A DNA stretch of 64,000 nucleotides, from positions 13,206,001 through 13,270,000 of the forward strand of contig NC_003284.9 in NCBI RefSeq assembly GCF_000002985.6, written 5' to 3'. Source of the stretch: Caenorhabditis elegans (Eukaryota > Nematoda > Chromadorea > Rhabditida > Rhabditidae). The notes beneath the pieces were generated by a model. The model did no database searches, was not told the DNA's origin, and saw only the letters and a list, made by a program, of their open reading frames with translations. How positions within the stretch are numbered: position 1 is the stretch's first letter; every line of letters starts with the position of its first letter. A program made the translations under genes and the position numbers. Shown in pieces: positions 2,053-61,338 of the stretch.

Positions 2053-5000
2053 CTTGTATCCTATTTTCTGAATGCTTATTATGAGAGGGAGTATTTTTCA
2101 AGAGTAAAGGTATGAGTATAAATTTTTAAAGATACTTCAGAACGCTGAAATTTTTTTGTGACCTTTTGAAAGGGCTTCTGAGAATATAAAACTAGAAAAG
2201 ATTAAGCATGCTTTCTACTTCCATTTCTGCTTGTCTTCCTAACATTAATTGAAAATTCATCGAAATTGAATAGAATATCAGTAGAGCCCCTTCCCTCGTT
2301 TCTTTTTTTTCTAATCTCTCCTTTTCCACTATTCTATTTTTTGAGACATAAAACATGTCATTTTGAAAGAAGTTGATATTGTCCTATACTTATTGTTATT
2401 CACTTTCATTTTTTCTAATTAAATTGGTTATATTGTTTGTTCTTGTTTTCGCGTGGCGCATGGTCATTAAAAGTTGGTGCAGCCTTTTTTTAACAGGCGA
2501 ATAATACAGCAAATTTAAGCATATTTTTATCGCTTACATTTTTTTTCGGGATGTGCATATATATTACCTCAAAAAAAATCATATAAGATTACTCCATCTT
2601 AAACTTGAAAATGCCAATGTTTCTGTAGCTTAGACCGATCTAAAGTGTTCCTACATCTTTTTCATGCAATTTTATATTTGTGTAACAAAAAGCAAGCTCA
2701 GTGTGTACAAATTTAGCTGATAGTGTGTAGTGCACCTTTGTGAAGCTTTTTGGTAAGTTTGCAGCCGATATTGAGAATTGCAACCTTACCGTCTATTGCC
2801 AAAATATTAGTTGACTGTCAATTTTAATAAATATACCGTAAAATACTTGAAAATAATTCAGAATCCTATTTGTGTATTTCAGCCGCTCGACATTTCATTT
2901 CAGAGTTTCCAAATTTTACTCTTAACTTTTCAGTATTTGATAAAGATTAGAACAACACGTTTGGAATTAACGAACAACCTGGAATTTTTTTCATTTTTTT
3001 TTCGAGTCCTTCTACAACATCGATTTTGGCTCTTGAAGTCGTCCTTCTCGTCGACGCCGCCGCCGCCGTGGCGTGGCCCGTCTCCTTTTTTCTTCTCCAA
3101 CGGCAATGGAAAACGGGGGAGAAAACTCCACAGCTCAGTGAGAAAACTGGAAAAAAGCGTAAGAAATTGAGAGAGGAAGGGAGAGAGAGTATGCAAAATT
3201 CCGCAACACGACACTTTAGAATCTTCCACGTCCAACCAGGTCCATTGGTCCCCTCCTCCTTTCAATCTATACCAAAAAAAAACTTTTGTGTATGTATGTA
3301 TGTGTATATGCTCCTTTATTCACTCTTCACAACTTGTTTCTTCCCCTTTTTTATTTCTTTTTTGTGCATGTGCGTGTGCTGCTTTAATATAATGTGTAAC
3401 TTCCTTGGCCCCATTGTCAGAAGTCCTTTCCCATTTCCGGTTTGTCAAAAAAAAATTTCACTCAATTTTTGTTCTCATACTACAGTACTTTGTGCCGCTA
3501 CCCGAAAATGTTTAGAAGACCGAGAGCAACTCTCCTACTTATTACTGCGGCGAAGCACACATATACTCGTTTTCTGAGGAGAAAAATCGTTTATACATAA
3601 TAGGTTCGCTTCTATTTTTCTTCTGATTAGTTAGTCTCGAGAGAGCAACGGGCGGCAAAACAACGAATAGGAATTGTTTTGAGGTGGTGGTCGAGGTTCA
3701 GACTTGAGCACTCTTTCCTTTCTTATTTTCCGCTAGGTTTTACTTTTTCCGCTCATGCGACGAGACTACTACAAATTGAAATTGAGAGCTGGAAGATGGG
3801 AACAATTTTCATGGTTCGGTCTTAAAAATCTGGTTTTCTGACTTGTTTCAAGAAAATACCTTTCTACGAAGAAAAGTAAATCAGGATATAATTTTCAGTT
3901 TTTCAATTAGTGATAGTTTGAAACTTGCAAGGGAATCGATTGCTTAGAGAGACAGTCAATTTGAAAACTTCCAAAAAATATTTGAAATGTTAAAATCAAT
4001 GCTCAAAAGTAAGATTCGAGCTTCACATAAAGCAAGATGCTTATGATTTTTTTTTAATTTTATAACTTTCGTACTATTTTAGTATTCAAAGTTAATAATT
4101 AAACAGATCAGGTTCCCCTTTAATGTTTGTTCACTAGATTTTCCGGTGTGATCTATCATTTGAGTCTTTTTTTTTATTCCGTAATGACTTCTCACATTGT
4201 TCCAACTCTGCTAGGTTGAACAAATTCGTTTTACAAGCACGGAGTACGTGTAGGTGCTTATTTAAAAAGTTTATGTAAGTACGTTGACCGTACCTTATCA
4301 CGCAATATTTTGTTTATTTATCTGAAATTTTCTGTGCAAATATAGCTAATGAAACGGAAAAAATTGAAGGATCAGAATAAGAAATAAGATGGGGAAGAAA
4401 AAAAATGCATATTCATTCTTATCTTTTTCACATTTCAATGCACACCACTAATTATGCAGCCGTTGTTTTCTTCTGCCAATGTCTTCATCTTTATCCGTTT
4501 TTTGTCATTCTTCATTTCTCTCCATCAGCTTTTGTGCAAATGCAGTGCATCACGTCATTCAGGGACAGAGCCACAGGAGACAGAAGAAAGGAAAAAGAAA
4601 AGGGGACAAAAAGGGACCCTCTTCTCTTCACTGGATGCGAAATTCAGAAGGAAAATGAGAGAAAAGGAAGGAAAAATAGTGTGCCAATGTGATGCTTCTT
4701 CTTTTTTTTTCTTTTTTCTTACTCCGTGTGGTTTTCGGGTATATATGTGGGGCTGTCTATGTCTTCATTTTCCCACTGCTCTCTGTCCACTCGCTCCACG
4801 TCCCCGGCTCCCTCTCTCGTTTTCTTCAATTGGCCATCAAAATTCGTGGAAGACGAAAGAAAAGAAAGAAAAGCGAGAGGAGGAATAAGAAAACGTGGAG
4901 TAAGCCAGGAGACCTCCTTCTCTCTTTATCTGTCTCTCTAGTATGCATTTTCTCGAGCAGGCTAGTAAATTTTTTTACTATTAGAAGGTGCCTCACATAG

Positions 5001-6389
5001 ATATTTCCCATTGTACTGAGTTATGGTTTTAATTGTTTCCAATGTTCTTGTGAAAGTAGTTTGGTTGAAATACGGAATTGAATTATCAAGATATTTAACG
5101 AGAATTGAACTGTTTTTTTTTTCGGCCATTTTCAGTAGATTTCATTGGATTTTCTTAGAATTTTTGTACCTTTTCATCTGAACACAGCTTTTTTCAAAAA
5201 TATATAATCGCGAAACGCGCTAGTTGGTTTTTGGATTGACTGACATCATCCCACTAGCGACAGGACAATTTTTAACCTAGAAACACTGATGGCACTTTTC
5301 GTAAGTTTTGTAAAACCTTGAGATTTCGGCAACAAAGCCGCCAATTCCCGTCTCCTGATTTGAAATTCATGCACTCTTCTTTGGTCCTGGCAGAGTTCAA
5401 CTCTAGTGTGAACTACAAGTTGAGTCCACCTGAACTTTTGCTCTTGCTCCATTCCTTTTTCGTTTTAAAATGTAGGTTCATACAATAGCTTCTTAATTAG
5501 AATTCAGGATGTCAGTAATAGATTCCTGTGAAAGACTCTGTCAAGATAATTTTTAGATTCTGAAAGAACATTCGGAATATAGATAAATTTGTATTACGCA
5601 TGTAGAAAATGTATACTTTAATTGCTATTAACTAGGGATTCTCTGATTTGCTGCATAAATATTCTTTTGGAGCTTTTATGTTAACTTTTTTCATATTTTA
5701 AACATTAAAAATGATATTTTCTTCAAATTATCGTCTTTTCATTAAAAAATTTGTTTAAGATGACCACAAATCAGAACAATAGGCCACGATATATGGGTAG
5801 GTTTGAATCGAACATTAAATTTGATAAAAAATACGATAGGTTTTACTGAATTTTTTTTTGACAGTTTCACAAATATAAAGTTTTAGTTTCAAAAAATGGG
5901 AAAAAAAATCATAAGAATCCCGAACTTTGCCTTAGTTGTTTTGTTTTCGTTTGCTTTGCATTTTCTTGTAAAAATCAAAAATTCTCACGGTAGCCTTTCA
6001 ATTATTAAAAATATTTAAAAGTCGCATTCAATTTTTCAAAATTTGAAAAAAAAATCCTCCAACAGCAAAACGCCATTCCCCTTTTTCTCCTTCAAGTTTC
6101 TCCCTTCCTTCGCCATTCCTTGTTCCCGACGCTTTTTCTTTTTTTTTCCAATGCATAATTAGAACGACCTGGCTGCCATCAACAGACGTTGTCGTCCGTC
6201 GTTCACTTCTATTTTCCACCACCTCCGGCTCCCCAGCTCCTGTTTTCCACATTTTTCGCACCCTTCCAATGTCCGAACAAGACATGTTTTCAAACAAAAA
6301 TTACTAGAACATCATCCATTCTCCATTTCTGCCCGTATTTTTCATCTCTTGTTTTCCCGTCATATCCTTACATCAAATTTTTTTTTCAG
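2053..6389. other. Long non-coding region upstream of unc-9
   Basis: About 4.3 kb with alternating purine and pyrimidine blocks, mainly around 3000-3580, 4400-4960 and 6040-6380. There is a GC-rich patch near 3045-3080 and a TATG/TGTA microsatellite near 3290-3310. Frames that open here are products of the biased composition. The region ends in a strong acceptor (T-tract then CAG at 6387-6389), so at least one upstream 5' untranslated exon or a trans-splice site probably lies at or before this point. It is the natural place for the unc-9 promoter, but I cannot name a binding site. Confidence 0.5.
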
Positions 6390-17015: not shown

Positions 17016-17537
17016 TCAATCAGAATCCGTTGTGAATGTCATTGCAGATGTTCCCTCTCCACCATTTGCCAACGCTTCCTCCATTTGTTCTTCATCTGAC
17101 CTGATTCCATAGATCTTGCGAATTTCTTCCGTGCTTTTTCCTCGAATCAATTCTGCTGCGGCTGCACACCCCATATTCATCAAATCTTCGACTCCAAGCG
17201 CATGAGAAGCATTGAGTAGTGCAAAAAGAACTCCCGATTCCACGTTGAAAAACTGCTTGTCCCATTCGGAAAAATCGTGGTAACGAATTTTGGAGTCTCG
17301 TCGGGCGAGCGGGTTGTCCTGATAATGGTAAAGCCACTCTATTACAGCTTGAACAATCGATGAGTGGAATGGAACGAGAATTGGATCTGCTCGTTCACAA
17401 TTTCTGTCGTTCACTCCATGGTCAATAAACTTCTGATTGATAAATGCACAAAATTTCATTGGTCCTCGTTCGACATTAAAAATTTGACCATCCTCTGACT
17501 TCAGTTTGTACAAGGGCGCAGATCGTGGTGTGGTCAT
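17016..17537 (-). CDS. skr-19: SKP1-related protein (probable SKR-19)
   Basis: Skp1 homologues bridge CUL-1 to F-box proteins in SCF ubiquitin ligases. One exon, 173 residues. The N-terminal POZ-like Skp1 domain starts with YKLKSEDGQIFNVERG. The helix region (IVQAVIEWLYHYQDNP) corresponds to the canonical VIxWCxxH segment, with Tyr where Cys is usual, and is followed by EWDKQFFNVESGVLFALLNA. The C-terminal F-box-binding part reads LGVEDLMNMGCAAAAELIRG, then KSTEEIRKIYGI. The terminal Trp-Cys of classical Skp1 is missing; an acidic, Gly/Thr-rich tail replaces it. The ATG follows a CCTTTAG acceptor by a few bases, which fits trans-splicing. First of three tandem SKR genes. The symbol is assigned from gene order next to asp-4, so skr-19 versus skr-20 is not certain. 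Confidence 0.8.
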   Translation of the reverse strand: MTTPRSAPLYKLKSEDGQIFNVERGPMKFCAFINQKFIDHGVNDRNCERADPILVPFHSSIVQAVIEWLYHYQDNPLARRDSKIRYHDFSEWDKQFFNVESGVLFALLNASHALGVEDLMNMGCAAAAELIRGKSTEEIRKIYGIRSDEEQMEEALANGGEGTSAMTFTTDSD

Positions 17538-18240
17538 GATGTGGAACTAAAGGTAATTGATTAAATAGTTTTGCAATTGTTTCAAAAATATTATTGAGTG
17601 GATTCAAACCACACAAAAATAAATATATAAATGAGATATCTTTAAAGTAATTTTTATTATTTATTTGGCGAATCATAGACCTGTGGAAAAGAGCTGGAAG
17701 AATACACTATGAATTTATTAAAGATGGAATGAAACGATTAAAAACTGGAATTGTAAAATTTTTTGAAGAAAAGTGAATGGCGTTGTGAGTCAAGTTGATC
17801 AAAGGCAAATTTTCTATATTACAAATCTACAGCGAAAGTTTTAAAATATAAATTGAACGAAGAAGCAGAGAAAATAAAATTGAATACAAGACGGTTGAAC
17901 ACGGGAAATTAGCATTAAATGTGGTGGTGGCTGAGAAGTATGGTGGTTGTATTTAAGTTTTTTTGTAGGGAATCGAGAAGAGAATTTTTGATTCAAACTT
18001 GAAAAATAAAGTTGCATTGTTTACAAAATTAGTATGGTTTTTGCATTTTTTCTGTAAAATATAAAAGACGAAGAATACTTTTGCTAAAATGTTGCCCAAA
18101 TTATCACAAAAATTTCAAAAATGGGCTCAACTTTGATCTTATGATTACATTTTTCTCACTTCAAATATTTACTGAAATGAAAACAAATAGTCTAAATTTT
18201 CCCATACCATACGAAACACCACACATCTGAAATGAAATTC
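17538..18240. other. Spacer between first and second SKR genes
   Basis: About 700 bp of AT-rich DNA. No coding exon or repeat is evident. Confidence 0.5.
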
Positions 18241-18708
18241 CTAAGCCGCTGCAGCCACCACTGGATATACTGGCTGCTCCTCCTCTTCATCATTCACCAA
18301 TCCGTCAATAATCTCTCTAGGATTTTGTCCGACGACACGGCAGCACATGGCGAAGAGACCAGGTACAGTAAAATCCCTCGCGGCTCGGATTATATCAAAG
18401 AGCATGTTGTGCCTCACCATCAGAAACGACGCATCCCAGTCAGGAATATCATTGGTTTCCGGTTCAGATTCGTCGTAGGGCGGGTCGTGCTTATGATGGT
18501 CGCACCACTCGATCACTTTCCTCATCACTGTCGCAGGGATTTCTAGTTGAATTGGCTGCAGTTGATCGGCAGGAATCAGGTCTAATCCAGCATTTCTAAA
18601 TAGGTCCTCAATCCGTCCTATCATTCCGATTGTTCGCCTATCTGCCAGAAATCTCTGCCCATCTGTTGACCGAAGTTTGTAGAGTATTACAGGTTCTTCA
18701 ACTTGCAT
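18241..18708 (-). CDS. skr-20: SKP1-related protein (probable SKR-20)
   Basis: Divergent Skp1 homologue, single exon, 155 residues. The open frame extends upstream to 18795, but that extension is a Tyr/Phe/Leu-rich intron translation. An ATTTCAG acceptor lies just before the ATG at 18706-18708, so I start there. The Skp1 features are VILYKLRSTDGQRFLADRR at the N terminus, VMRKVIEWCDHHKHDP with the canonical Cys, and IPDWDASFLMV. The C-terminal part (FTVPGLFAMCCRVVG, NPREIIDGL) is short and ends in Glu- then Ala-rich residues. The F-box-binding C terminus is thus truncated relative to Skp1, which may narrow partner choice. The plus-strand frame across this gene is an antisense shadow. The symbol rests on order in the cluster. 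Confidence 0.78.
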   Translation of the reverse strand: MQVEEPVILYKLRSTDGQRFLADRRTIGMIGRIEDLFRNAGLDLIPADQLQPIQLEIPATVMRKVIEWCDHHKHDPPYDESEPETNDIPDWDASFLMVRHNMLFDIIRAARDFTVPGLFAMCCRVVGQNPREIIDGLVNDEEEEQPVYPVVAAAA

Positions 18709-20133
18709 TACACTGAAATACTTGAAAATGTCTGTAGTAGAAAGAATGAAAAGAAGAAAAAAAATTAGCAAATAATAGTAATAGTCAGGATTCAAACTAT
18801 TTCCTTAAATTTTCTAGATGAAGTTCTATTTGTATGTAGTTTCTTGCAGAAGAAAAAACTAAATTAAATCGTTTGACAATAAAATTCAATGTGTAATAAT
18901 TTCTTTCGCACTTTTGCTTTAAAAAACGTAGCTGAAAATAAAGTTTTTTTATCCGATTCTTAGAACTATTACAATGTTAAACACAGAAATTTTTGGATCA
19001 ATAAAGTGTATGTCAAGAATATGATGGGTGACCACTAGTTGGTACAAAAAAAATGAAAAAAAAGTCACTGATAAGTCACGACAATCATTACTTTCTGTTG
19101 AACAGTTCAATTACATAGCACATTAGGAAAAACTGATTTGAAAATAGCGTTTCAAGAATGTATTATTTTACTAAAATGTTTGAAAATCAAGATTTCAAGA
19201 AAATCGATAAGTTTATGTGCGCTCCTCAAGCACACCTTCAGCACCAACGTCTTCCCCCGAAGGCTGGCAGACGACGCGTTTCTCTTCCACGGCCATTAGA
19301 AATATGGAAAGTCACGTGAACTCACACAACACAACTATCAAAAGGAAGAGTGTCATCAGATAAGAACCTAATATTTCATTACAGGAAAGGTCTGGAAAAA
19401 TTGATTTTTTTTTGTTTTCTTGTTCGGCTCACACGGTATTAGAACGACTAAATTATTCCTGTGAAAATAGCAAAAAAATTCGAATTCTAACTTCAAATTT
19501 GAAAGGGAAAATAAAATAACCAGTTTCCTCCTTTTTATGCTAGAAACTGACATATGAAACCTTTTTTCTTTTCATTCTTTCGAGAATGAATCAATCTTCC
19601 AACACACTACCTATTCCTGCAAGACAAGACCGCGACGCAGCCGCAACGCGCACTTATAAAGCTACCTCGAGCAAACAAAAAGAGAGTACGTTGTCATGGG
19701 TGATGAATGATGTCACTCAAGATTACTCCAACTCGGGGAAGGATTATTATCTGAATTTGAGGTGGAGCAGATGTTGCCCAACTGTCAGAAAAAATATATA
19801 TTCAGGAACAGGTGTTTAATGAGTAATTTTATTGGGAACTTGTTAGGGCATGAGATTAATTGGCTGAAAATAAAATATACAAAAAATATTAGAGGAATTA
19901 AAATGACAAATTATAGTTTTTAATTTACAAATTATACAACAAATGATTGATTGATTTTTTTTTCAAAAAGCCTGAGAGAACGTGTTAAATTGAGAATTTG
20001 GTTAGAAATGAAGGCTGAGATGAGGCAGGAAGGCAGTGAAAAGATTTAGTACAACAGTTTCGGGTTCAGATCGCATAGTAATTACATAGTTCGAGTCAAG
20101 TTCAGGAGGCACAGAAACATGGTATATCAAAAA
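18709..20133. other. Spacer between second and third SKR genes
   Basis: Mostly AT-rich. It contains a compact GC-richer patch at 19213-19296 (listed separately) and an AT-rich stretch without supported exons. The plus-strand frame near 19586-19819 has a plausible composition but no start or splice context that I trust. Confidence 0.45.
19213..19296 (-). other. Short GC-rich ORF, 27 codons, uncertain
   Basis: Begins ATG GCC GTG GAA GAG and ends TAA, encoding MAVEEKRVVCQPSGEDVGAE plus seven further residues. Base composition is clearly richer in G+C than the surrounding DNA, as expected of an exon, and the peptide is not low-complexity. It could be a small ORF, or a 5' exon of the SKR gene downstream on the same strand. 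I found no matching splice partner. Confidence 0.25.
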
Positions 20134-20664
20134 CTATGCAGCTGATATGGCTGGGATTTCAATTTCAACATCGTCTTCTTCATTTTCATCCACATCTACT
20201 TCCAATTCTAGGACATCTTCCAGACTGTCTTCCTCGTCCGATGGGCTCTCAACTCCTCCAACTCGTAGCATAAGCTTGACTTCATTTAGAGTTCTTCCGA
20301 GCATAATGGACACAGCTCTGCAGGCCACGTCCAATAGTCCTACAATTTCCAGACGAAAAGCCGCTTCAGCCAAATGGAGCAGAATCGCACTATTGGTGCG
20401 GATAAATTGAACATCCCAGGCGGTGAGAATTCGCTGGGCATGATCTTGATCCTCATTGCGATGATGGTAACACCATTCGATAATCTTCACGAGCACAAAG
20501 CTACAGATGCTGGTTTTGAGAGGATGCGGTTGTACGAGATTGTTCATTTGAGCCAACACAACAGAAAAGCACTTGGACTTTTGGATAAACCAGTCTTCAA
20601 CGGCAAAAACCTGACCGTCGCATGATTGAATTTTGAAAACTGGCTTGATCTGACCGATCACCAT
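20134..20664 (-). CDS. skr-21: SKP1-related protein (probable SKR-21)
   Basis: Skp1 homologue, single exon, 176 residues. The N terminus reads VFKIQSCDGQVFAVEDWFIQ. The conserved helix is VLVKIIEWCYHHRNEDQDH, followed by LTAWDVQFIRTNSAILLHLAEAA (given in part: AWDVQFIRTNSAILLHLAEA). The C-terminal segment is LLDVACRAVSIMLGRTLNEV, then KLMLRVGG. A long acidic tail (about 35 residues of Glu/Asp with Ser and Val) replaces the Skp1 terminal Trp-Cys. The ATG follows a TTCTAG acceptor by about a dozen bases. It is the third member of the local cluster and as diverged from the other two as they are from each other. The symbol is inferred from order. Confidence 0.78.
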   Translation of the reverse strand: MVIGQIKPVFKIQSCDGQVFAVEDWFIQKSKCFSVVLAQMNNLVQPHPLKTSICSFVLVKIIEWCYHHRNEDQDHAQRILTAWDVQFIRTNSAILLHLAEAAFRLEIVGLLDVACRAVSIMLGRTLNEVKLMLRVGGVESPSDEEDSLEDVLELEVDVDENEEDDVEIEIPAISAA

Positions 20665-22668
20665 TGGTAACTGTGCCTAGAATTGAGAAAATTAACAATT
20701 GACATACAAACTGCGAGAGTACAAAATAAAACAAGATTGCGTGGAAACATCATGAAAAATTATAGTAACTTCTGAGGTTCAAATCGAAGCTTCAAACTTC
20801 GACATCAATAAAATCAATAAAAAGACAAGTCAATAGAAGCTTATACCGGCCCAGACTACACGGAAAATCGATACTTGCCACGTTATCGTCCTCCTTCACC
20901 GCAACACACTATGTATGCATAATTAGTCTGCCTTTCCTCTATCTCTCTCTCTCTCCCTCACTATCTCTCTATTTTCTCTTTTCTCTTTTCTTATTGTTGC
21001 CTGACCTTTATAAGACCACCCACCCAATTGTTTGAGTACGGTTTGGGGTAAGAGACAAGAAGAAAACGTCTCGGATTCGTTGGTTTTGGGAGATAAAGAT
21101 TGTATTTCAAAATCCGGAACCGTTTTCTTTATATTAGAATTTGAATAAATCAAGAAATTTGACACAAAAAACAGCTGGATGAGTTGGAACACTATCTAAT
21201 ATGTATATAATTTTTTTAAATTGGATTTTCTACAAAATAGCTAGAAATTCTGAAACCAAAAATGTTCAAGATTTTTGAGCAACGCAGCAGAGAATAGTCG
21301 CAGAGAATGGAACAAAGCAAATGCATCACCAAAAACCAAAGGCATCTAGTGAACAATTTGTAAATAAGATTGTTACACAAGACTCTTCCCTCTCAAAAAC
21401 AATATTTTTAACGGAGATTCGGGCCAGAAAACATTGGCCAGAAAACACAAATTTTGAAACAATTAATATGAAATGAAAGAAAAATAAATGAATAAAAAAA
21501 TGACGACTTTATAGTTTGTACAGCTGACTTCTGCGTGGGCAATTAATTAATAATGAATCCAATTTTCTTTGACTAAATGATGCTCATTATTTTCTCATGC
21601 CAGATTACGTAGAAAGAATACGTTTTTGTTCCTTTGTCCGACAGATATAATTTTTTTGTTGGCAGACACTGTTATGAATGAGCATTCTTTTTATTTCTAA
21701 ACTGATGTACACAAGTGGTTGAAAAATTGAAAATTTAGTTTCTTTTTTCTTGATAAATCCATTTGAAACCTAGCTCAAAGATGAATTGAGTATGCAACGT
21801 TATCAATAGAAATATACACATCAAAAAGTTTAAAACAGGTGATCAAAAATCAAATGCTATTGTTTCAACAAACCAAATCAACTACCGTATTCTTAAAATT
21901 TAATCATTTGAACATTTGATCTCAAAACACCGCGGCAAGGCTGAGCGTGACGTCATAATTGTTTAATTGTGAAAACCGGTATGACGTCACAATTTATCAT
22001 AAATGGTATTAGAAAAAATAAAGAGTGAAAAGCAAAAATAAAAGTTTTTGAAGTAATCTATTTGTCTGTTCTCTTTGAAGATTTGTTATTTCGGCTTACC
22101 ATAAGTGACAAATTATAATGGTTGATTCGGTTAAGTTATACTAATATTACAGCAATATAATATTTAGGGCAATATGTTTGAAATTGCAAAATTAATGTGA
22201 GCAAGCCAACAAGCAATGAAAACGATAAAATTGAAGTTCTCAGTGTGAGAACTCTATTACCAATAAAATATTCTAGTTATCAACCATGATTCATGATTTC
22301 TCATATTTTTGTTTGTATTTAATAATACAGAGTTCTTATCATCAATTAATCTAAATCAAATTGTTTCAAATTAATGAATTAATTCTCGACTGTTCAAAAA
22401 CTTGCAACAATTGGATTAAGGAAAGCAAAAATTTCTATATTCGTCACTTTGAAAGTAAAAGTGGTGCTTAAAATCTGAAACGTTTTACCTGGGGCTTCTT
22501 AAATTAGGTAATTGAAATATTCATTCTGAAACACACTGAAATATAATTTGAAAGTGAGTGAACGTACTAAAATAAATTAAAACAAAATAAACCCAGACTT
22601 CTCGAAAAACACGTAGTTTTGATTGTTATAATGCAAATATATCTCAATCCTCTACAAAAATTTTCCCA
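20665..22668. other. Intergenic between SKR cluster and GT49 gene
   Basis: Contains a CT/GA-rich tract around 20935-20990 and the pair of inverted TGACGTCA sites at 21947-21990 (listed separately). I see no coding exon. Confidence 0.5.
21947..21990. promoter_or_regulatory. Inverted pair of CRE-like TGACGTCA sites
   Basis: GTGACGTCATA at 21947-21957 is repeated in inverted orientation as TATGACGTCAC at 21980-21990. Each contains the palindromic cAMP-response element TGACGTCA, bound by CREB/ATF bZIP proteins (CRH-1, ATFs in worms). They could also be the arms of a small foldback element. Function is inferred. Confidence 0.5.
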
Positions 22669-28277: not shown

Positions 28278-28957
28278 TTACTCTTTAGCCACTTTCTTTC
28301 CTTTTGATTTTTTCTTCTTGTGACCGGTTTCCACATTGACTTTCTCTTCAGCACTACTGGGTTTTGGAACTATTATCACTCTGGTCTCTTTTCTCACATT
28401 CCAGCGTTTGTCTTGCTCTTCGTTCTTGATTATTTGATAAGCTGGTTGAGGAAGCTCTTTGGTACAGCCTGGTGAGCATTCACATTTTGCAAGTCCACCC
28501 GTTGGAATCGCGATATCTTCTGGCTGTGGTGCATCCGGAAAGACGTCGACGTGGGGCTTGATGGAAGCGTACTGAAAATTTATACGTTTGTTAATGTTTA
28601 TGTTCAAACACCACTTGAGCATTTTTATTTTAATCAATATTAACTCACCATTAAATCCACCATCTTTTTTAATTCGGGACTCAATTTGTTGTGCTCTTCA
28701 AGAACTGCCTTCTGCCGCATTTCTTCCTCCTCCTTCAATTTTTTCTCTTCTTCTTTTCTTTTTATGGCGTTAACATAGATACTGGCAGAAGCTGCCATTG
28801 CTGCGGCAAGCATCTTTTCAGCCAATTCAACTTTGTTACCGTTGCGCCCCGAAGATCGTACAACTAGGTCCATCGCAATTTTGCTGGCTACTGCGGCTTC
28901 CTGGATGAGTTGGTTGCTGGATTCCTCATCTTCAACAAAAACAGAAAACGAAGACAT
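28278..28957 (-). CDS. Unnamed Cys/Pro-module protein, family member A
   Basis: Family unknown to me. Two exons, 28649-28957 and 28278-28571, giving 200 residues. Exon 1 follows a GTTTCAG acceptor and encodes an Ala-rich helical stretch, then a Lys/Glu coiled-coil-like segment (AIKRKEEEKKLKEEEEMRQK), ending KKMVDLM. Exon 2 starts exactly at Tyr and carries the shared module: H-x-DVFP, then IAIPTGGLAKCECSPGCTKE and LPQPAYQII. It ends in a Lys-rich tail (HKKKKSKGKKVAKE) that looks nuclear-localising. The same exon junction (M|Y, phase 0) precedes the module in the genes at 31.4 and 32.8 kb. The CxCxxxC spacing plus the His could bind a metal, which is inference. Opposite strand to its paralogues. 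Confidence 0.8.
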
Positions 28958-31418
28958 TTGTGTTGGTGTGAAGAGTATCTGAAACAAAATAAAATAGATC
29001 GATGAAATACCAAAAAGAGTTGATAGAATTTTCCACGTAAAAAATGAGCATTCAAGAAGAGAGGAATAAGCAAAAGCAACACTGCTGGCACTGGCTCAAG
29101 ATCCACGTGTCAAACAAAACAAAACAAAACAAAACTGGAGTAATGCATTACCCGGTCTGTATACCTCTATCCCAATAGGTAAGTGGGCGTGGTACGCGAT
29201 CATCTATAAATGGGAAGGACCAACATTTACAGCGATGAACTGGAGATGAGGGACTCTTAAAGTGGATACCTGACGTAGATACTGTAAAATAGTGCAGATA
29301 TTGATTGGTTTTTGAACGTGACATCATTGCAACTACAACCTACTTTCCAGGCTTAAAAAAAAAAAAAAAAAAATAATAATAAAAAAAAAAAAAAAAAAAA
29401 AAATTGATACAATGTGCATAAAATTTAAATTTCAATGCAGTGTCAAGTCGTTTCAAAAAGGATAGCACTTTCCAAAAAGTGCCTTTCAGTGTAAGTTTAC
29501 TGTTACTTTAAAGGAAAACATGTACTGGAAATACTTTCCAGATAATTTTCTTTAACTTTCGATTTCACCTTAAACAAAAATTGAAAATTTTAATGAAAAC
29601 GTACATTTTACAAAGTTCAAAAATGCAAGACAAGAAATATCCAAAAAATATAACTCTGTGAAAATTTTTAATTTGATATAGCATGCCCAAATATCAGATC
29701 AGTGCCCGAAAATTGTTCTGGTTAAACTTTTGATTAGAAATAGAGTACTAGAAAAATATCCATGTTCTACTCGGAAAAACGCGTATAAAACCTAATAAAT
29801 TTGTGCACAAAAGCTGTTCAATCCCTTCTTTATATTCACTGAAAATTTGCAGCACGAGATTGTTCTCAGACTTGCACTCCTAACTGTTTTTCTGATGGGT
29901 GTTCGATTTTTACCGTGAATTAAATTTAGAAATAAACGGGTATGTAGTGGAAGATGGCAACTGAAAAACCTGGTGGCACCTGGGTTTTGAGTTAAATTCA
30001 TTTTCTGCAATATATGTACATTCAGCCTCTGAAAACTCATCCCAAACAATAAATATATGCCTTTCTCGTTTTTAGTGACGTCATGTTTGCCATAGGGCGA
30101 TTTCATCCAGTGTTCCAAGGTTGCCGTGCAAATCGATATTCATCCTGTTTTACAGCCACGTGGCGATGTTGCACTACGCAAAACGGCGCGCAAATGTACC
30201 AAGTGACGACGTGTTTTCCCTCATTCACATTTTCTTTGTTTGCCGTTTGCCTGTTTTTTCTCTTTATCCTCTTGCTCGCTGAATCAATTTTTTTAAAATA
30301 AAAATTTATGTTCTAAAGAAATATTGATATTACCGATGTAATTCATCAATTTTTTCTTCTTCCTTCCCCTAGATTTGACTTGCTCTCAGATTTATTCTGA
30401 ACATTGTTGAAACATTTTGTCTCTCTTTAAAATAACCTGAACTCCAACTTGTTTTTTTTCTCTAACAGGGCAAAACGGCAGTTTCAAGCAGCCTCAAATT
30501 ATGTCGTATTAAGAACCTAACTCATAATCTCCTCTATTCCTATTTAGCAAATGAAACTAGGTACATAATATTTCTCTGTTTTATTTAACGGCCCACAAAA
30601 CGGGACAAAAATCAAAATAAAAAACTGTCGGGTTGATTACGTCTTCAGATATGCGCGCAAGATATTTTCTCTAAATTTAGGGTTCCGGAAAAATGGTAGA
30701 ATCAGGGGATTATGGCATCGGGGGCAGTCAAAATTTGAGCAAAAACTCCAATTTCTGACATTTTTCCGCAATGCAGAATTGACAAAGAATATTCCGCGTA
30801 GGTTATTAGAGTCAGATTTGATGCGTCTGTTGTTCTGTATTATTAAAAATGGGCGCGGTCTATTTCCGACAATTTTACGTTCAGTAATTAAAATTCAACA
30901 CCTACTACTAACTTTATCACAAAAATCTAACCGGTTCCTTAAATTTTTTCTACGTGTTCCTTCTATTCTTCTTTACTTACTCCATAAATCATACGGCAAA
31001 AAGCTACACTTGTTTTCTCATCAATGAGGCAACCGTTTTTTGTAATTACTGATATTCTGCTCATCGCTTCGCCCGTCAAATTTTTTCCCGTCCGGGCGAT
31101 CACAGTCGCGCCCTATTGCAATCTTGGAGAGTGGAGAAGACGTTGTGTGTAGAGTGCGCAGAGAAAGAGAGCAAATCGAAGATAGCGTGCGAATAAGGGA
31201 GACGCAAAGAAATTTCACTGTTGAACTTGCATTCCTCGAGAAAAATTAAATTCCATTCTCTCAATGTTCCACGTTGAGTTTCTTTGACTACAGTTTTTGA
31301 TCAGTTAATTTTATTTCTGTGCCAAAAACTCTTTCGCATTTTTTCCGATTTTCGCTTTTTAAGTTTTTGATCGATCAACTTTAATAATCAAGTTTTTTTA
31401 CAGAACCGGAAAACAACA
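28958..31418. other. Intergenic between family members A and B
   Basis: Contains a long A-tract interrupted by TAATAAT (about 29349-29402). A GC-richer block at 30080-30210 and another at 31020-31210 with GAGACGCAAAG, a GAGACGCAG-like element, look like promoter DNA for the gene starting at 31419. No coding exon is supported. Confidence 0.5.
29349..29402. repeat. Compound poly-A tract
   Basis: Roughly 20 A, then TAATAAT, then about 23 A. Simple-sequence DNA, possibly the tail of an old retroposed copy, but no adjacent retroelement is visible. Confidence 0.8.
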
Positions 31419-32364
31419 ATGATGAATGGTGAAAGTGAACGCAAATTACACGAACTCCCAACCGAAGGTCGAATTGAACGCCGAGTTACTGAAGCTGCAG
31501 ACGAAGGAATCGCCGCTTTCGAGAAAAGAATGTACTATATGCTGGACAAAAGACCACACGGTGAAATTCCCACCAGACTTCTTCTTTGGCGCTTTGGAAT
31601 TATCGATGGATATAGTAGCTTGAATGAACACATGAGAGATATCAAAATCAGAGTGATCGAAAAGTGCGGACAATACCCTTGGGACTTTGATAAGCTCGTT
31701 TACGATAAAATCCGCAAGAAGGTAAGTTGTTAACACTATTTTACAAAAGCTAAAATACAGTAGAGATAGTTTGAAATATAATTTCCGAATAACTAGAAAC
31801 CAATTTGCAGTTCTTCGAAGGAGTGATTCCCATTTTCTATAAAATTGCGCGTTTTGCTGACATGCAACGCAATGATGGAATACCGATGGAATATGAGGAG
31901 GAGGACCCTATTGGAACAGGACTTGAATATTCTGAAAGAGCGGAAGGCGAATTCATCGAGCTCTACAACACTTGGTTTTTCCATGAAGATGTGGATGGTC
32001 AGCAACCAGGAAGAGAAGATTTCGACCCCGCTGCCGAACAGGAAAACTCGGAAGATCCTGAAGTTGTTGAACCGAAGAGTGTCGATCGCAATCTCGCGCT
32101 GTTCTTGGGCGAGATGGTTAGTACTTATTCGAAAAGTTGTATTTAATTTGTACTTATAATTTTCAGTATCTGACGATGCAGCCTCATACAGACGTCTACC
32201 CACCGGCTCCAAAGCCTGGAGACATTGTGATTCCAATTGGAGGTCTTGCCAAGTGCGAGTGCTCACCGGGTTGCACAAGAGAGCTTCCACAGCCAGCGTA
32301 CCGTATCATCGACGAAGCTGAACGTCGTTGGTTCCCAAAGGACAACAACAAGCTCCGCAAGTGA
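31419..32364 (+). CDS. Unnamed Cys/Pro-module protein, family member B
   Basis: Three exons, 31419-31721, 31811-32116 and 32167-32364, giving 268 residues, the longest of the family. The ATG lies about 15 nt after a TTTTTTACAG acceptor, and a second Met follows immediately. Exon 1 encodes a charged N-terminal domain (IAAFEKRMYYML; then IRVIEKCGQYPWDFDKLVYD, KIRKK). Exon 2 is acidic (YNTWFFHEDVDG). Exon 3 begins at Tyr after Met and holds the shared module: HTDVYP, IVIPIGGLAKCECSPGCTRE, LPQPAYRII. No domain I can name. The N-terminal domain resembles the whole of the small gene at 34.6 kb. Upstream DNA contains a GAGACGCAAAG element at about 31199-31209. Confidence 0.85.
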
Positions 32365-32843
32365 TGGGACATAATTGATTACCGTTTTATTTTTATTTAT
32401 TTGTTTTCTTGCCACCCGAACACGGTTTTAGTTTTATATACGAATGATCTTGTAAAAAATGCTGCCAATATCTTGGAGATCTTTGAACGCTTCGTTGCAC
32501 TCAATTTTTATTGAGCGGTGTATGCTTATTGTAAAGTTTCCCTTTCCTGCCAACTGTGCACGAGGACCATGCCAAGTGTGCGCGTGCGTATGCGTTGCGG
32601 TCCACCGTCTCTTATTCTTCGCCAAACTATCCAGCCGACAAAGAATCGATATGCAAACAGCCCTTGTCGGCTATCAACACGAACAATGCCACGATGTTAT
32701 TACATTTAGATGCATGCGGTGCTCTTTTGAAATAGTCACTTCATGATTCTATCACTAATTTAGTTTTTTTTCAATTGTTAATTTAACAGTTTTGTTTGTC
32801 ACACAGTTTATATCATTTCCAGATACCTCAGAAAGCTGCTCGA
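32365..32843. other. Intergenic between members B and C
   Basis: Short spacer with a GC-richer patch at 32540-32680. The patch has open frames but no splice or start context that I trust. Confidence 0.4.
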
Positions 32844-33948
32844 ATGTCAAAGTGCCCACAAGTTTCATCACTGGATCTAGAACTGACCACGAAGAAGGTT
32901 GAAAAAGTAGGTTGAAGGGAATGAACAATATTGTTTTAAAATATTGTTTAAAAAACTAGGTTTTTACAAAAAGATTTCAACCAAGTTATTAATAAGCCAT
33001 CAGATCTTGAGTGCCTAAAGTTCCGGCGCGCAAACATCACTTAACGGAGGGAACTGACTAGTCTCTCCACGCCGCATGCTCTTTCGCTGCAAATATTTTG
33101 TAGACGTTCTCATGAAATGATGGTTGCTTAATATTCAATTTTATTCAAAAATTGCACAATCTAACTTTAGACGTTTTGTTTCATTGATTGTAGAGGATGT
33201 TATCCCCTCTTGTTTTACTTCTGGAAAGTAAATTTCTGATGGAGCAAATATTTGAAGTCTTTCCTAGAATTCTAAAATACTAAATATTAACTTTCAAAAA
33301 TGTGTAATGTGTTTTAGTATATTTAGACGACAGCTTTAGACGACAGTTTCAACTGTAGTGAATTTTACCACAGTGTATATTACTGTCATGATGTAGAGAA
33401 ACATTTTGCATGTATTTTGTCACATGAAAATTCTACGACGCACTGTAATAGATAAGTACACGTCTTAAATAACAGTATGTATATGTATGTATTTTGCCAA
33501 AAACGAAATTTTCAAATTGAAATTCTGAGCAACATTATCAGGCTTGAAATTTCCTTAAACATTTTCTCTCTGAAATAAATATTATTGCAGTGCCCGACCA
33601 ACAACTCCGATTCTTTCGAGCAGACAGACGAGCCGCCGGTGCAAATGAGTGCAAAGCTGCGTGCTCTTGTTGAAAAAATGGTACGTTTATTGTTGGTCTA
33701 TCACATTTTTGTTTCACTTTCACAAAGAAATCTTTCAGTACTCCACTCAAGAAGAACACACGGATGTCTTCCCAGCGTCACCCAAAAAAGGAGAGATCGT
33801 TATCCCAACGGGAGGGCTTGCCAAATGCGTCTGTTCGCCAAACTGCAAAAAGGAGCTCCCACAACCGGCGTATCTCATTATTACAGAACATGATAACAAT
33901 CAGTGGATGCATTTGAAGAATAAAAATGCGAAAAAAGTTTACCATTAG
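32844..33948 (+). CDS. Unnamed Cys/Pro-module protein, family member C
   Basis: Three exons, 32844-32906, 33591-33680 and 33739-33948, giving 120 residues. The ATG follows a TTTCCAG acceptor by about 20 nt. The first two exons encode a short polar lead ending MSAKLRALVEKM. The third exon begins at Tyr and encodes HTDVFP, GEIVIPTGGLAKCVCSPNCK, then KELPQPAYLII and a basic end. This is close to the minimal form of the family: little more than the module plus a short helix-like lead that resembles the end of exon 1 of member A. Intron 1 is 684 nt, large for this gene size. An AATAAA at 34055-34060 fits the 3' end. Confidence 0.82.
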
Positions 33949-34622: not shown

Positions 34623-34916
34623 ATGAAAATGACAAACTCTCCAATTGAAAGAGAAACCTCAACGGCTATGAACACAAGTTCAAATAAGGGAGTCATCAGC
34701 TTCAAAAACAAAATGCACCGAGTTCTTCTTGCAGAAAGGAAAAAAGACAATCCGGTTGCTGACTATTCCAATCAACTTTGGTATTCCGAATCAAGAAAAT
34801 CACGGAACATTATCGAGAAGTTAATTGAACACCATCACGCGGAACTTCTAAAAAATATGGAAAACTACCCAATGGACTGTTTCAGAACAAAGCAAATGAA
34901 ACTAAGAAAGCAGTAA
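34623..34916 (+). CDS. Small gene related to member B's N-terminal domain
   Basis: Single exon, 97 residues, with ATG two bases after an AATTACAG acceptor. The open frame extends upstream to 34518, but that part is intron-like. The protein has FKNKMHRVLLAERKK, a polar middle, and MENYPMDCFRTKQMKLRKQ at the end. This matches the layout of member B exon 1 (FEKRMYYMLDKRP ... CGQYPWDFDKLVYDKIRKK): same order, similar spacing and the N/Q-YP-x-D core. The Cys/Pro module is absent. It could be a truncated duplicate, or an independent gene for the N-terminal domain alone. Confidence 0.65.
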   Translation: MKMTNSPIERETSTAMNTSSNKGVISFKNKMHRVLLAERKKDNPVADYSNQLWYSESRKSRNIIEKLIEHHHAELLKNMENYPMDCFRTKQMKLRKQ

Positions 34917-35108: not shown

Positions 35109-36278
35109 CTAGTAGACTTTGAGAGAACCTTGCAAGTAAGAATGATTGATGATTTCCTCCTCATCAAATGGAAATCCCTGTTTGATTGCGTTAAAGACTC
35201 CAGCGTAATTGAACTTCTCTGCATCACTGTCAACGATCACACAAGCCACCTTCAAAAGCCATGGAACACTACGAAGAAACCGAGATGGGTCAAGCTCCTG
35301 AAAAAGAAACGTGATTTTTATGTACTATTCTTGCTCACTCACAAAGATCATTTTCTGATGGCGGACTTCACTGACAGAGCCAATTTCGAGACTACTAATT
35401 CCACTGATTTTCAATCCAAGAAACATCAAACTAGAAAAGTCATCCTTCAAGTTCGGCACACCTCCCATCATTACATTCCAAGACACGTGACCGCATTCTT
35501 TAAAATTGACATCTCGCTGAGGACGATTCTTCACGTAATTTCCACGACGATTACGAAATTTCTTTCCAACCCCATAATCAATCAATTTGCATGGGGAAGC
35601 CTGTAAAAATAAAAATAATTTTAGAATAAGAATTTGATAACTTACCGGTGTGATTGTCTTGGCAAATAAAACATTATTCCAGTGAATATCACGATGGATA
35701 TATCCAAGAGAATGAATAGTTTGAAGAGATTTACCAACGGAAAGCATGATTTTCAAAACATTGGTCGGAGAAAATTTCTTTGGATCGTTGCGCTTACAAA
35801 CATCTCCCAGTGAATCTCCCTCTTTAGTCATTACTGAAAATATAGATCTGTTTTAAAAAGTTGCACAGTTGTAGAGCTTACCAAGGCATCCGAGAGTGGA
35901 GTCAACGACGAAATTATCGACTAAAGTTGGGAATCGCGACTTTTCGTTTGTACCCAGAGTTGAAATCCGCTGAAGAACTGTTCTCTCCAGCTTAAAGCAG
36001 TTTTCGCAGAAAATTGTTTCCAGATTTGAAGCTTTCAGCGCCAATGTTGAGTGACGCGAATCCGCATCTACGCAAGCAAACGCTGTGCCGTATTCTCCAG
36101 ACCCCAAGACTTCAACTATTTTGTAGTTTCGCAAGACGTCATCAACATAGGGGCACGCCTGAAATTATTTCATATTTTGGTTATTCAGTCAATTTACTAA
36201 AATTTTGCTAAACAAAAATGCCAATTTTTCATGGATTATAAGGGAATTTACATAAGAAAAAGCAACAAAACTCACCAT
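35109..36278 (-). CDS. Divergent casein kinase 1-family protein kinase
   Basis: Five exons from high to low: 36276-36278 (ATG only), 35882-36158, 35646-35833, 35343-35600 and 35109-35297, giving 304 residues. The start codon is the last three bases of exon 1, directly before GTGAG. Kinase features are YKIVEVLGSGEYGTAFACVD (Gly loop), LALKASN (catalytic Lys), LGYIHRDIHWNNVLF (catalytic loop; HWNN where CK1 has KPEN) and LIDYGVGKKF (DYG in place of DFG). Also present are a CK1-like segment FKECGHVSWNVMMGG and LKDDFSSLMFLG, the counterpart of the DDLESL motif. Lys, HRD Asp, Asn and the DYG Asp are all present, so activity is possible. C. elegans has a large expanded CK1/TTBK-like set, many of them germline genes; membership is inferred. 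Confidence 0.85.
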
Positions 36279-55202: not shown

Positions 55203-55274
55203 GCCTCATTGGCTCAGTGGCAGAGCGTCTGTCTAGTAAACAGAAGGTCGCTGGTTCGATTCCAGCATGAGGCA
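55203..55274 (+). tRNA. tRNA-Thr (AGT)
   Basis: A 72-nt cloverleaf. The acceptor stem GCCTCAT pairs with ATGAGGC, the D arm is GCTC...GAGC, and the anticodon arm TCTGT-CTAGTAA-ACAGA has anticodon AGT. The T arm GCTGG-TTCGATT-CCAGC is followed by discriminator A. A and B box promoters are intact (GGCTCAGTGG, GGTTCGATTCC). No intron. The wobble A would be deaminated to inosine, reading ACU/ACC/ACA codons. Confidence 0.95.
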
Positions 55275-55376
55275 CCGAAATTTTTTGTTGACTTTTAACT
55301 CAAAATCGGTGTTCTGAAAAAAATTCTCTTATAACCCGTCACATTCTGCATATGAAATGAAAAGAAATGTAAAAAA

Positions 55377-56499: not shown

Positions 56500-58507
56500 A
56501 TGGTAAAATCACGAGTGTGGGACTATTTTCTGAAACTTCAAGATGGCCGCAACAAATGCAATTTATGCAACAAAATTTTGGCGAGAGGGAGTAGAGGTAT
56601 AAATTTTCTTTGTTTAAAATAGTGTTTTTAATAAACATTGTTCCAGGTTCAACACATAACCTTATCAGTCATTTGACGCGAGTTCACCCAAAAGAATATG
56701 TTCTTCAAGAAGAGCCACCAGTTATGATAGCTCAGGAGGATTCTTCGGAATTCAGTTTTCAAAGTAACAATATGAAGACTGAAGATTTCACAATGCAATC
56801 ATTTTTTGAACCAGAATTCATGAAACTGTATAATGATAACAATATCACCAAGTCTATTATGGAAATGATTTGCATGGATTCAATGCCAATGACGACGACT
56901 GATCGAGCAGGATTCAAGCGATTTATGACAAGTGTATGTCCGGATTATGAGTTGAAAAGTCCCTCATCAATGATATCATACGAGTTGCCAAAATTGTATC
57001 AAGAGTACGAAGACCAACTAAGAATGGAATTGAATTTGGCTGAGCACGTTGTTCTCTCTGTTGACATTTGGTCCGACAAAGGTTCGATACAGGAGATGAT
57101 TGGAGTTACTGGAAACTTTTTGAAAAACGAGAAAGTAGTTCGTCGTACAATTGGAGTTATCAACTATCAAAAGGACGTACACAACGGAGTCTATGTTGCT
57201 GCTGAACTTGATAACCTGATGGCCCGGTTCAATTTAAATGGAAAAGTAGAAGTTGTCTGCAGAGATTACAATTCAATTGTAGAAAATGCATGTGACCATT
57301 TGAAAATTTCTTCAGTTAATTGCTTCAATCAACAGCTACATTTGGCAGCTTGTGAGGCAAAATCAAAAATTGGACAAATAAACAGAGTTTTGTTGAACTG
57401 CAAGCTACTTGTCAAAAATTTGAAAAACAGTTCTGTCACCTGGCAAACATCAGAGAAAATCCAAAGTTTAATGGAAATTCCAAATTTGTGCCTCAATCAT
57501 TGCTCAGACGAATGTTGGTGTTTCTTGCAAGAATTCTTTGGGAGGGTCATAGAATGCCAACAAGTGATTGAAGAACTTCAAAAACTGCAATCGAGCGATT
57601 GGGACCTTATGAGAGATGTCGTGGAAATTCTGGCACCACTTAGCAAGTTTTCTAAATTATCAGAGGTAAATTTGCTACTATCATCATTACCCCTCTATGT
57701 TTTTTTTCCAGTCAAAAGAGTCGTCTGCTTCAGTGATCATTCCATACTGTGATTATCTTGTGAAAGCATACGAATCAACACAAAATCAGCCGGAAGCATT
57801 TTTGGCAGTTAAAGAACACATGGAAAGAGAGCTGCACAAATACACATCTTGCCAGTACTTGAAATTTTCCACTCTACTTGATCCGCGATATAAGGTATAA
57901 CTTTAAAATATGAGAACAAGATTTGTTAAGTTGTATATTTCAGGATTTATATACAAACGACAGTGACACTTCCAATTTGATAAAGGCCATTGAAACTGAA
58001 TTTGAAACGATGGATTACAAAAACAGAACATTTGAAGAGATTTCTTCAGAATTGTGTGGACCAGCTCCAAAATCTCAGAAACTTGATTTTGACGCTTATA
58101 TACAGGTATTTAAAACTCAAAACATAGTTAAGTTAACAAATAAATTGCAGGAAAAAATTAAATCTCGCGGCAAACATAACGCATTAACTGGTGAAAAATT
58201 GACCGTGAGAATGGAAGTGACTCGATATCTCTCAACAGCCGTTGAAGATGTAACGCCTAGAGATTTCTGGCTAAACGATGTGACAAAAGCTTCTTATCCA
58301 AGACTTGCCAAATTCGCTCGACGTTTTATAATTTGTCCGACGGGATCTAGTGCAGCCGAGAAACTATTTTCAACAGATCGAGCGACTATGGATGAGTACA
58401 GAAATACTTTGTCTGATGAAAATTTGAAAATGCTCATTTTTTTGAACAAAAATATTTCTTCAATGACTGATCTTGAATTTGAAACAGAGCGGGACCTACA
58501 TGACTAA
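56500..58507 (+). CDS. BED zinc-finger / hAT-dimerisation protein
   Basis: Probably a domesticated hAT transposase (ZBED/DREF-like). Five exons, 56500-56596, 56647-57665, 57712-57894, 57944-58105 and 58151-58507, giving 605 residues. The N-terminal BED finger reads VWDYFLKL, CNLCNKIL, STHNLISHLTRVHP (C-x2-C ... H-x5-H). The central RNase H-like region has VVLSVDIWSD (first Asp position), VVCRDYNSIV and CFNQQLHLAACEA. The C-terminal hAT dimerisation domain reads YPRLAKFARRFIICPTGSSA, then AEKLFSTDRATMDEYR. Introns, an intact frame and no terminal inverted repeats within view argue for a host gene, not a live transposon. The 45-nt intron 58106-58150 has no in-frame stop, so its retention would add 15 residues. 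An AATAAA at 58569-58574 fits the 3' end. It may be K09A11.1; I am not certain. Confidence 0.85.
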
Positions 58508-58682: not shown

Positions 58683-58766
58683 TCCGTCGAACCGGATTCG
58701 AACCAGTGACCTAAGGATACCCGCTGACTCTACAGTCCTCCGCTCTACCAACTGAGCTATCGACGG
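58683..58766 (-). tRNA. tRNA-Tyr (GTA) with intron
   Basis: Minus-strand cloverleaf. The acceptor CCGTCGA pairs with TCGACGG, the D arm is GCTC...GAGC, and the anticodon stem GAGGA pairs with TCCTT. The loop CTGTAG carries anticodon GTA and is interrupted after position 37 by about 11 nt. The T arm is ACTGG-TTCGAAT-CCGGT. An intron at this site is normal for eukaryotic tRNA-Tyr and requires tRNA splicing endonuclease. Confidence 0.94.
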
Positions 58767-59080: not shown

Positions 59081-61338
59081 TTAAAATTGAGGAATAATAT
59101 TACAAGTGTAAGGTTTAGCGGTTAAAACAACTCCCCAATCTGGAGTCAAGTCAATATTAGAAGTGGCAACAAACTCATACTTCTGAATTAGTGCACTGAA
59201 AATCAGGAATAGTTCCATTCTTGCAAGCCCTTCTCCAACACAGTTTCTTTTTCCAATACTAAAGGGGATCGTTTTTTCAAGAACAGCCTGAAATACAAGA
59301 CACATTTTTTAAAATTCAATTTCCTAATTCATGCTCTACCTTATCAAACGTTTTCCCATCGGATTGTAAGTAGCGGCTTGGATTGAATGTTTCTGGATCT
59401 TCAAACACTGTGTCATTTCTCATCACTGACCACAATTGCGCAAAAACTAATGAACCAGCTGGAACTCTGTTTCCGTGAATTTCAGTTTCCTCTTTGCCTG
59501 AAAATGCACAAGTTGACTTTGAAAAAAAAAACAGTATCCAAAAATGAACATCTTACACTGATGAGACCCCAAGAAAGGAATCATGTTAGAACATCGCTGC
59601 ACTTCATGGATCACTGCTTGAGTATATGGCATATTTGGTTTATCTGACATTGATGGCAAACGTGCTGTTCCAACATTGTCCAGTATTTCTTTTCTGACTT
59701 TATCTTGAACTTCTGGATATTTCATCATAAATGCCAAATGCCAGCGAAGAGAATTTGATGTGGTCTCCATGCCAGCTAACCAAAAATCGAGAACTGTTGC
59801 ACACAAGTTTGTAATACTGAAATAGTGATTATATTTAGTTTTAGAGAATAAGCAAATACAAACTCAAGTCCAGGATTTCCCGTTTGCTTCATCTGTTGCA
59901 TGTAAGCGTGGACAAAATTTTCAGGTTCACTCTCCCCATCGTATTTTTTCACTTGCGTAGCTACTTCTTCTTCGATAAATGTATGGTACTGAAAATCTCA
60001 CTCAATTTCTACTTAAGTAATAACTAATATAATTCAACTCACCGAAGATATATTATTTTTAATGTTGTGATATCCGATATCTCCAACTATCGGAACATGT
60101 TTCAACCATGGAAACGCAGAAACCAATAGTGGCATTTTTCCTTGAAGATGCCTCAGATGTTTATCGACAATTTTAACAAACGTCTTGAATTTCTCCGAGT
60201 CTTCATATTTGTAATGAAAACCGAACAGTGTTTCATTGATCACGTTTCCCACACAAAGTTGAATTGGCCAAAAAACGTCGACGTTTTTCTTATCATTAAT
60301 GTTTTCCAGTTGAATAAGCATTTCGTGAACCGAACGGATTACTTGTTCTTCCATCAAATTTCTCCCTAAACCAAAGTCACGAAGGATTTTCAAGGAAGTT
60401 CTTCTCTGAAGTCGCCAGTGGTCACCATCCGAGGCAAGAATACCAGTGTGATCGTGAACTGGCAGAAGGGTTTCCGGAGAACGGTGAGCTCGGTAAGTGA
60501 ATGTGTCACCTGAAGAACTTATACAGTTATACTTAAAGCGTTTAAATAATTGATGGAATATTGGAAAAGTTTGTAGTTTTTAATGGGTTAACCGGTATAA
60601 AGTAAAGCTTTCTACGAAAAATCTGTCAGTTTTGCAAAGCTTGAAAAATAGTCTTGCAGCCTCTTATAGTCTTGTAACTTCTATCAGTCTTGCACCCCTA
60701 CGGACCGATTGGAAATTAGTTTTGTTTGCAATACAAATAGAGTAAATACTGTAAATTATACCACAATTAAACAGTTGATAATTTACAACTTTTTTACTAC
60801 TCCCTATGCTGATTCAAAGTTTATTAACAGAAACCCCAATTTTTTTGAAAATAAACTGCTACAAACAATGTGTCTCTAGAGATATGTTTTTGTAACTTGA
60901 TTTTTTTTGTTGGAAAATGATCAAGTTTTTGTATTTTTTAAAATATTTTTAATTATATTCTATAATGTTTCATAAATTTATATTATTGAAACGTTGAGAT
61001 TTTTATTTTTAAATTTTATTTAAAACACACCTTGATTAACAAATGCATCTTTTATATGCTCATAATCAGTCAACACAATTGCCGGAAATGGAATCCATAT
61101 GGTAAAACATGGCCCATAGGTTTTAGATAAAACGTCAAAATACTTTTGAACATTGTCTGGAGGGAACTGAAATATTTTATTTAGAACAACTTTCCCCCTA
61201 TGCCACTGGACAAACCTGGTGAATATTACCAATGAATGGAAGAGGTAGTGGTCCTTTTGGATATTTACTCACTTTCCAGTAAAAATGAAAAACATAAAAA
61301 ATAATAAAAATTACAAAGGCTAAAATGAAGACTGACAT
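59081..61338 (-). CDS. cyp-14A1: Cytochrome P450, CYP14A-like (first of tandem pair)
   Basis: Microsomal monooxygenase of the nematode CYP2-like clan, likely in xenobiotic or lipid metabolism. Seven exons from high to low: 61216-61338, 61031-61166, 60043-60509, 59864-59988, 59557-59816, 59340-59497 and 59081-59287, giving 491 residues. An N-terminal membrane anchor (FILAFVIFIIFYVFHFYWK) precedes the proline-rich hinge YPKGPLPLPFIGN. The C helix has WRLQRR, the I helix DFWLAGMETTSNSLRW, the ExxR motif HEVQR, and the haem loop PFSIGKRNCVGEG, with the ligand Cys near residue 438. All key residues are intact. The 521-nt intron 2 contains a decayed copy of the MITE seen at 49.3 kb. CYP14A assignment and number come from the local map (hpl-1 and unc-9 neighbourhood) and are tentative. 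Confidence 0.85.
60640..60757. mobile_element. Decayed relative of the 49.3-kb MITE
   Basis: Contains TAGTCTTGCAGCCTCTTATA, then GTCTTGCACCCCTACGGACC, close to the internal repeats at 49284-49335 and 49530-49600. It ends with AATAGAGTAAATACTGTA, a degraded form of the AATAGAGGAAATACGGTA terminus. The left terminus is not recognisable. It lies in intron 2 of the first P450 gene. Confidence 0.65.

Follow-up and report, generated by a model that had tools for sequence, protein, structure and literature searches.

An uncatalogued C-terminal domain in a small, old gene family of Caenorhabditis elegans

The window analysed here, a stretch of 64,000 nucleotides of Caenorhabditis elegans DNA (C6:13206001-13270000, in a searched genome of 100,286,401 bases and 7 contigs), contains three genes, denoted A, B and C, at positions 28278-28957 (-), 31419-32364 (+) and 32844-33948 (+), respectively. 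Judging from the contig order, we take contig C6 to be chromosome X. The exon models yielded open proteins of 200 aa (A), 268 aa (B) and 120 aa (C), all ending in a common module; this module, proposed in the initial annotation, was confirmed by direct reading and translation.

Gene A consists of a first exon of 103 aa (28649..28957, -), obtained by direct translation and with a codon score that peaks in the predicted frame, and of a last exon (28278..28571, -; 97 aa plus stop, its tail being rich in Lys) that corresponds to the module, as indicated by translation, alignment and codon score. In gene B, exon 1 (31419..31721, +; translation, codon score) matched only gene B's own exons in the genome, exon 2 (31811..32116, +; translation, codon score, genome match) has FLGEM as its last residues and is followed by an intron between Met and Tyr, and exon 3 (32167..32364, +; translation, alignment, codon score) is the module, with 65 aa plus stop.

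The predicted start of gene C lies in exon 1 (32844..32906, +), read by translation, with an acceptor-like site 21 bases upstream; its codon score was the highest among the six frames, if narrowly so (0.15 vs 0.10). Exon 2 (33591..33680, +; translation, tail comparison, codon score) ends with MSAKLRALVEKM, which resembles the pre-intron segment of A and of the homologue D described below, and exon 3 (33739..33948, +; genome match, alignment, codon score) is the module, with 69 aa plus stop. All eight predicted exons of the three genes had the top codon score of six in the predicted frame, in a scoring scheme trained on just seven ORFs of the window.

The module exons of A, B and C are each preceded by a ttttcag or ctttcag acceptor, and the preceding exon ends in ATG|GT, in phase 0. 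Hence the module starts at the first base of an exon, right after a Met codon, exactly as first described. The sequence ATGGTGAGT occurs twice in the window (0.38 matches expected), one occurrence being the gene A donor, a result that carries no information. Genes B and C might form an operon. Between the stop of gene B and the first acceptor-like site of gene C there are 458 bases, and a search of this gap for AATAAA on the + strand found none. A search of the open-access literature by presumed gene names returned no papers on A, B or C.

When 10 ORFs of the window were scanned against Pfam, 6 matched a family (innexin, aspartic protease, Skp1-like, kinase, nuclear receptor and cytochrome P450). 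We assume that genes of the window on cosmids R12H7, K08H2 and K09A11 include unc-9, asp-4, skr genes, hpl-1 and cyp-14A. An HP1-like chromodomain exon (WEPIENLQC) was located by motif at about 39757 (+), ~6 kb from gene C; it probably belongs to hpl-1. Three similar Skp1-like ORFs (by eye) lie consecutively on the - strand at 17019-20676, and the one that was scanned matches Skp1, while two closely similar cytochrome P450 genes (one exon Pfam-scanned) are in tandem on the - strand at 59450-63117. Long open frames resembling a hAT-type transposase by eye occupy 56595-58504; the first of the two ORFs in this interval matched no Pfam family at E 0.001. There is a tRNA-Thr (AGT) at 55203-55276 and a second tRNA at 58683-58766, whose anticodon ARAGORN left unassigned. 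A small orphan ORF just downstream of C (34623-34916, 97 aa from Met) lacks the module and matched nothing in Pfam, searched at E up to 10. In an RNAi table, K08H2.5 stands beside kinases (PMC5913292), which agrees with the presence of a kinase at 35325-36164.

Alignment of the modules of A, B and C revealed 31 invariant columns, with identities to B of 57% (C) and 60% (A). The three motifs originally noted, Y-x5-H-x-DV-[FY]-P, IPxGGLAKCxCSPxC and [KR]ELPQPAY-x-II, are present in all three proteins. The core, read directly and placed by alignment, is GGLAKCECSPGC in both gene A (28464..28499, -) and gene B (32239..32274, +), and GGLAKCVCSPNC in gene C (33811..33846, +).

When the module of gene C was searched against the whole genome, it recovered, besides itself, gene B (E 6.8e-20), gene A (E 3.6e-17) and a further copy on contig C1 (E 1.0e-10); the likeness among the window's modules thus greatly exceeds chance. 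This copy belongs to a gene, denoted D, located on C1 at about 10375060-10379084 by searches with module and N-terminal queries, and modelled at about 689 aa; its module, used in turn as the query, found the same four places. The count of three is thus correct for the window and falls short of the genome total, which is at least four, as the search scores best candidates only.

The C-terminal module of D is 43% identical to that of C and is preceded by the same Met|Tyr intron. Where the window genes have ELPQPAY, D reads SLMEPAY, and their H-x-DV is replaced in D by HNYV. Consequently, of the two segments thought to be nearly invariant, the GGLAKCxCSPxC core stands and ELPQPAY is not family-wide. 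The four-copy alignment retains 21 invariant columns, including His7, Cys30, Cys32 and Cys36, and the pattern H-x-x-V-[FY]-P ... P-x-GGLA-x-C-x-C-S-x-x-C ... PAY is found in all four copies.

The animal sequence searched was the window's own genome. Scans of viral sequences listed 3 stretches with the module of C and 9 with a profile of the four modules, and scans of prokaryotic genomes listed 67 and 11, respectively; none of these was confirmed as encoding a relative.

Over the 48 columns of the core, all six pairs of copies showed much synonymous change (pS 0.78-1.01) vs little protein change (pN 0.16-0.39), which is an informal estimate from 48 codons. In the tails, pS was 0.45-1.06 and pN 0.45-0.67. 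Core dN was 0.18-0.27 among A, B and C, and 0.43-0.55 between these and D. Saturation of the core synonymous sites in the face of a conserved protein implies that the copies are old and constrained. It is hardly credible that A, B and C, or any of them, are pseudogenes in decay, given that their frames are open and their splice sites good, that protein change in the core is low where synonymous change is saturated, and that none of the eight exons scores better in a frame other than the predicted one.

In all four genes a phase-0 intron separates Met from Tyr where the module begins. Simple duplication would leave just such an intron at a shared codon. We compared the residues just upstream of this intron, where the initial annotation had seen unrelated N-terminal parts. 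The last 13 residues of A (KLSPELKKMVDLM) and D (KMSPELQKMVDMM) are identical at 10 positions, and D shows the segment SPEL-x-KMVD; the corresponding residues of C (QMSAKLRALVEKM) match D at 5/13 and A at 4/13 positions.

In ungapped comparisons of 14-residue pre-intron tails, the A-D pair ranked top of 54,540 window pairs, C-D top of 23,028 and A-C top of 3,420, bearing in mind that these window pairs overlap and are hence not independent. The tail of gene B was equalled or exceeded by fractions of 0.067 (against A), 0.028 (C) and 0.011 (D) in the same test. By gapped local alignment of the N-terminal parts, A-D scored 55, a value equalled in none of 300 shuffles; the A-C alignment was at chance level (189/300 shuffles as good), and the best C-D alignment (4/300 shuffles) falls elsewhere than the pre-intron tail. 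A four-way pre-intron score was reached by 0/20,000 random placements at every one of three lengths, whether or not the Met was included. Gene B by itself contributes nothing to this score, and its pre-intron residues were not significantly alike to the others, 30/196, 34/194 and 21/192 of the B windows doing just as well.

The claim of unrelated N-terminal parts therefore holds in part: the tails of A and, in ungapped comparison only, of C resemble that of D, and the tail of B does not. A consensus SPEL-x-KMV[DE]-x-M|Y can be written for A, D and, more weakly, C. That the conserved segment crosses the intron is clear for A and D and probable for C, and no sign of it is visible for B. If homology extends upstream of the intron in A, D and C, the intron would lie inside an older domain, a situation favouring duplication and divergence over the shuffling of a one-exon module.

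An exon-shuffling origin, in which unrelated host genes each received a copy of a single-exon module, had been put forward initially and is in our opinion distinctly unlikely. It would account for the module beginning at a phase-0 boundary and for the lack of matches of the A and B N-terminal parts to each other or elsewhere in the genome. Indeed, in genome searches covering the N-terminal parts of A, B and D, that of A matched itself only, that of B its own two exons only, and that of D (619 aa) gave eight matches, all of them D's own exons; when compared with the D N-terminal region, those of A and B showed no similarity beyond the pre-intron tail of A. However, A, C and D have residues in common upstream of the intron, so that the homology is not confined to the exon supposed to have moved. 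Moreover, the module is a last exon with its own stop, meaning that each move would have carried a 3' end too, and more steps are needed than for duplication followed by N-terminal divergence. Gene B, taken alone, is compatible with either duplication or shuffling.

Two resemblances suspected in the N-terminal parts were discarded. A helical pattern common to A, B and D was equalled by shuffled sequences in 988/1000 (B-D), 360/1000 (A-D) and 897/1000 (A-B) cases, and a PB1-like appearance, by eye, of the D N-terminal part found no counterpart in Pfam, which lists nothing at E up to 10.

Database searches agreed with the initial statement that no named domain fits the module: no Pfam or NCBIfam match rose above its cut-off and the PDB profile search came back empty. 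Of six proteins queried against Pfam with E allowed up to 10, two had a match, in both cases below cut-off, and D had none. For whole protein A the single match listed was GlxA (10.9 bits, E 0.76), whereas module A matched SAND_ULT1 (PF23292) over 31 residues (28-58) with 12.4 bits and E 0.22, the cut-off being 25 bits. NCBIfam matched none of the four modules. Among PDB sequences there was none for the module profile or for protein B, the one of the three window proteins used whole as a query; D gave five weak matches (best E 0.041), largely arising from an acidic stretch.

The sub-threshold SAND_ULT1 match raises the question of a diverged known domain, either zinc-binding or of the SAND-like DNA-binding type. 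We deem this very unlikely, since the match concerns only one of the four modules and about half the bits required, while SAND_ULT1 is not listed at E up to 10 for modules B, C and D or for whole A, and the PDB holds no sequence that the module profile matches. In its close C-x-C-x3-C next to predicted strands, the module resembles Cys clusters of the zinc-ribbon and post-SET type; it has, however, only three Cys and one His, with no above-cut-off Pfam family and no PDB chain match.

AlphaFold models of B and C were both built from the same three sequences, supplied as a three-row alignment, and were of low confidence (mean pLDDT 59.3 and 60.7, pTM 0.32 and 0.30, respectively). Both contain strands at 20-23 and 45-48, flanking the C-x-C-x3-C cluster. 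Searching PDB folds with the first of these models returned 4 matches with E from 5.0 to 9.7, which are meaningless.

The invariance of His7, Cys30, Cys32 and Cys36 is compatible with a possible metal site, and an HC3 zinc site would be the simplest use of those four residues. The predicted fold would then consist of beta strands around this site, the metal being probably zinc. The conserved core might instead be a linear docking motif or a lipidation site with no metal, its Cys residues serving for palmitoylation or as a binding surface. The low AlphaFold confidence, the single CxCx3C cluster and the short, Pro-rich character of the segment all point that way, yet conserved positions, including Gly-Gly, Pro and aromatics, spread over ~45 residues, which is long for a linear motif; overall, we consider this explanation possible though doubtful.

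The identity of D can be approached through its neighbours. To one side of it lie a zinc-finger gene that looks Sp-like by eye and a gene with a NEDD8-like motif; to the other lies a gene resembling, by eye, those for metabotropic glutamate receptors. There are small genes between, one of which appears similar to COX19, and a blmp-1-like gene (by eye) follows, in L023-L024. We assume F45H11.2 to be ned-8. A stretch of CRFADLPEI-type repeats near the blmp-1-like gene (L024, about 4600-6000, -), with open frames up to 1084 aa, is probably a minisatellite.

In the literature, F45H11.1 is described as an Sp-like homologue (PMC523228) and F45H11.4 as mgl-2 (PMC6478929), and blmp-1 is mapped between cosmids F45H11 and F37D6 (PMC4072510). 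Judging from these neighbours, D is probably F45H11.3, a gene named hpo-35 (PMC3048360). In that report, a screen found RNAi knock-down of hpo-35 to cause hypersensitivity to a pore-forming toxin, survival being 26% on Cry5B and 94% on HEPES; its Table 1 has hpo-35 as 'Unknown' with the orthologue column empty, which speaks against the COX19-like gene being F45H11.3. Elsewhere hpo-35 is listed among candidates for an interval that the text assigns to chromosome II, in conflict with the location of D on contig C1 (PMC7642933).

Taken together, the homology of the four modules, their shared intron position, their constrained core and the lack of any catalogued domain above cut-off define a domain absent from the catalogues and carried by a small and old family of worm genes. 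Exon shuffling has lost ground as an explanation. We tentatively propose, at somewhat under an even chance for the reading as a whole, that the C6 genes A, B and C are old duplicates within a family whose longest member found is D on C1, and that all four carry one conserved C-terminal domain, to which the upstream segment SPEL-x-KMV-x-x-M of A, D and C may belong. The domain would be intracellular, as no signal-like leader was seen by eye. A small conserved C-terminus on otherwise different proteins suggests that it docks to a common partner; with their differing N-terminal parts, A, B and C might act there as alternative adaptors or as competitors of D. If D is hpo-35, this partner would matter in the membrane-damage response. 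A bolder version, in which the module is a metal-binding docking domain of nematodes, as yet undescribed, that brings A, B, C and the pore-toxin-defence factor HPO-35 to one partner and the X-linked set are tissue-specific or dosage-sensitive competitors, seems to us rather unlikely.

A small conserved domain without a catalogue entry, present in four worm genes, is genetically easy to test. Should D not be hpo-35, this would be an ordinary lineage-specific gene family; if it is hpo-35, the domain may lead to a hitherto unknown branch of the defence against membrane damage.
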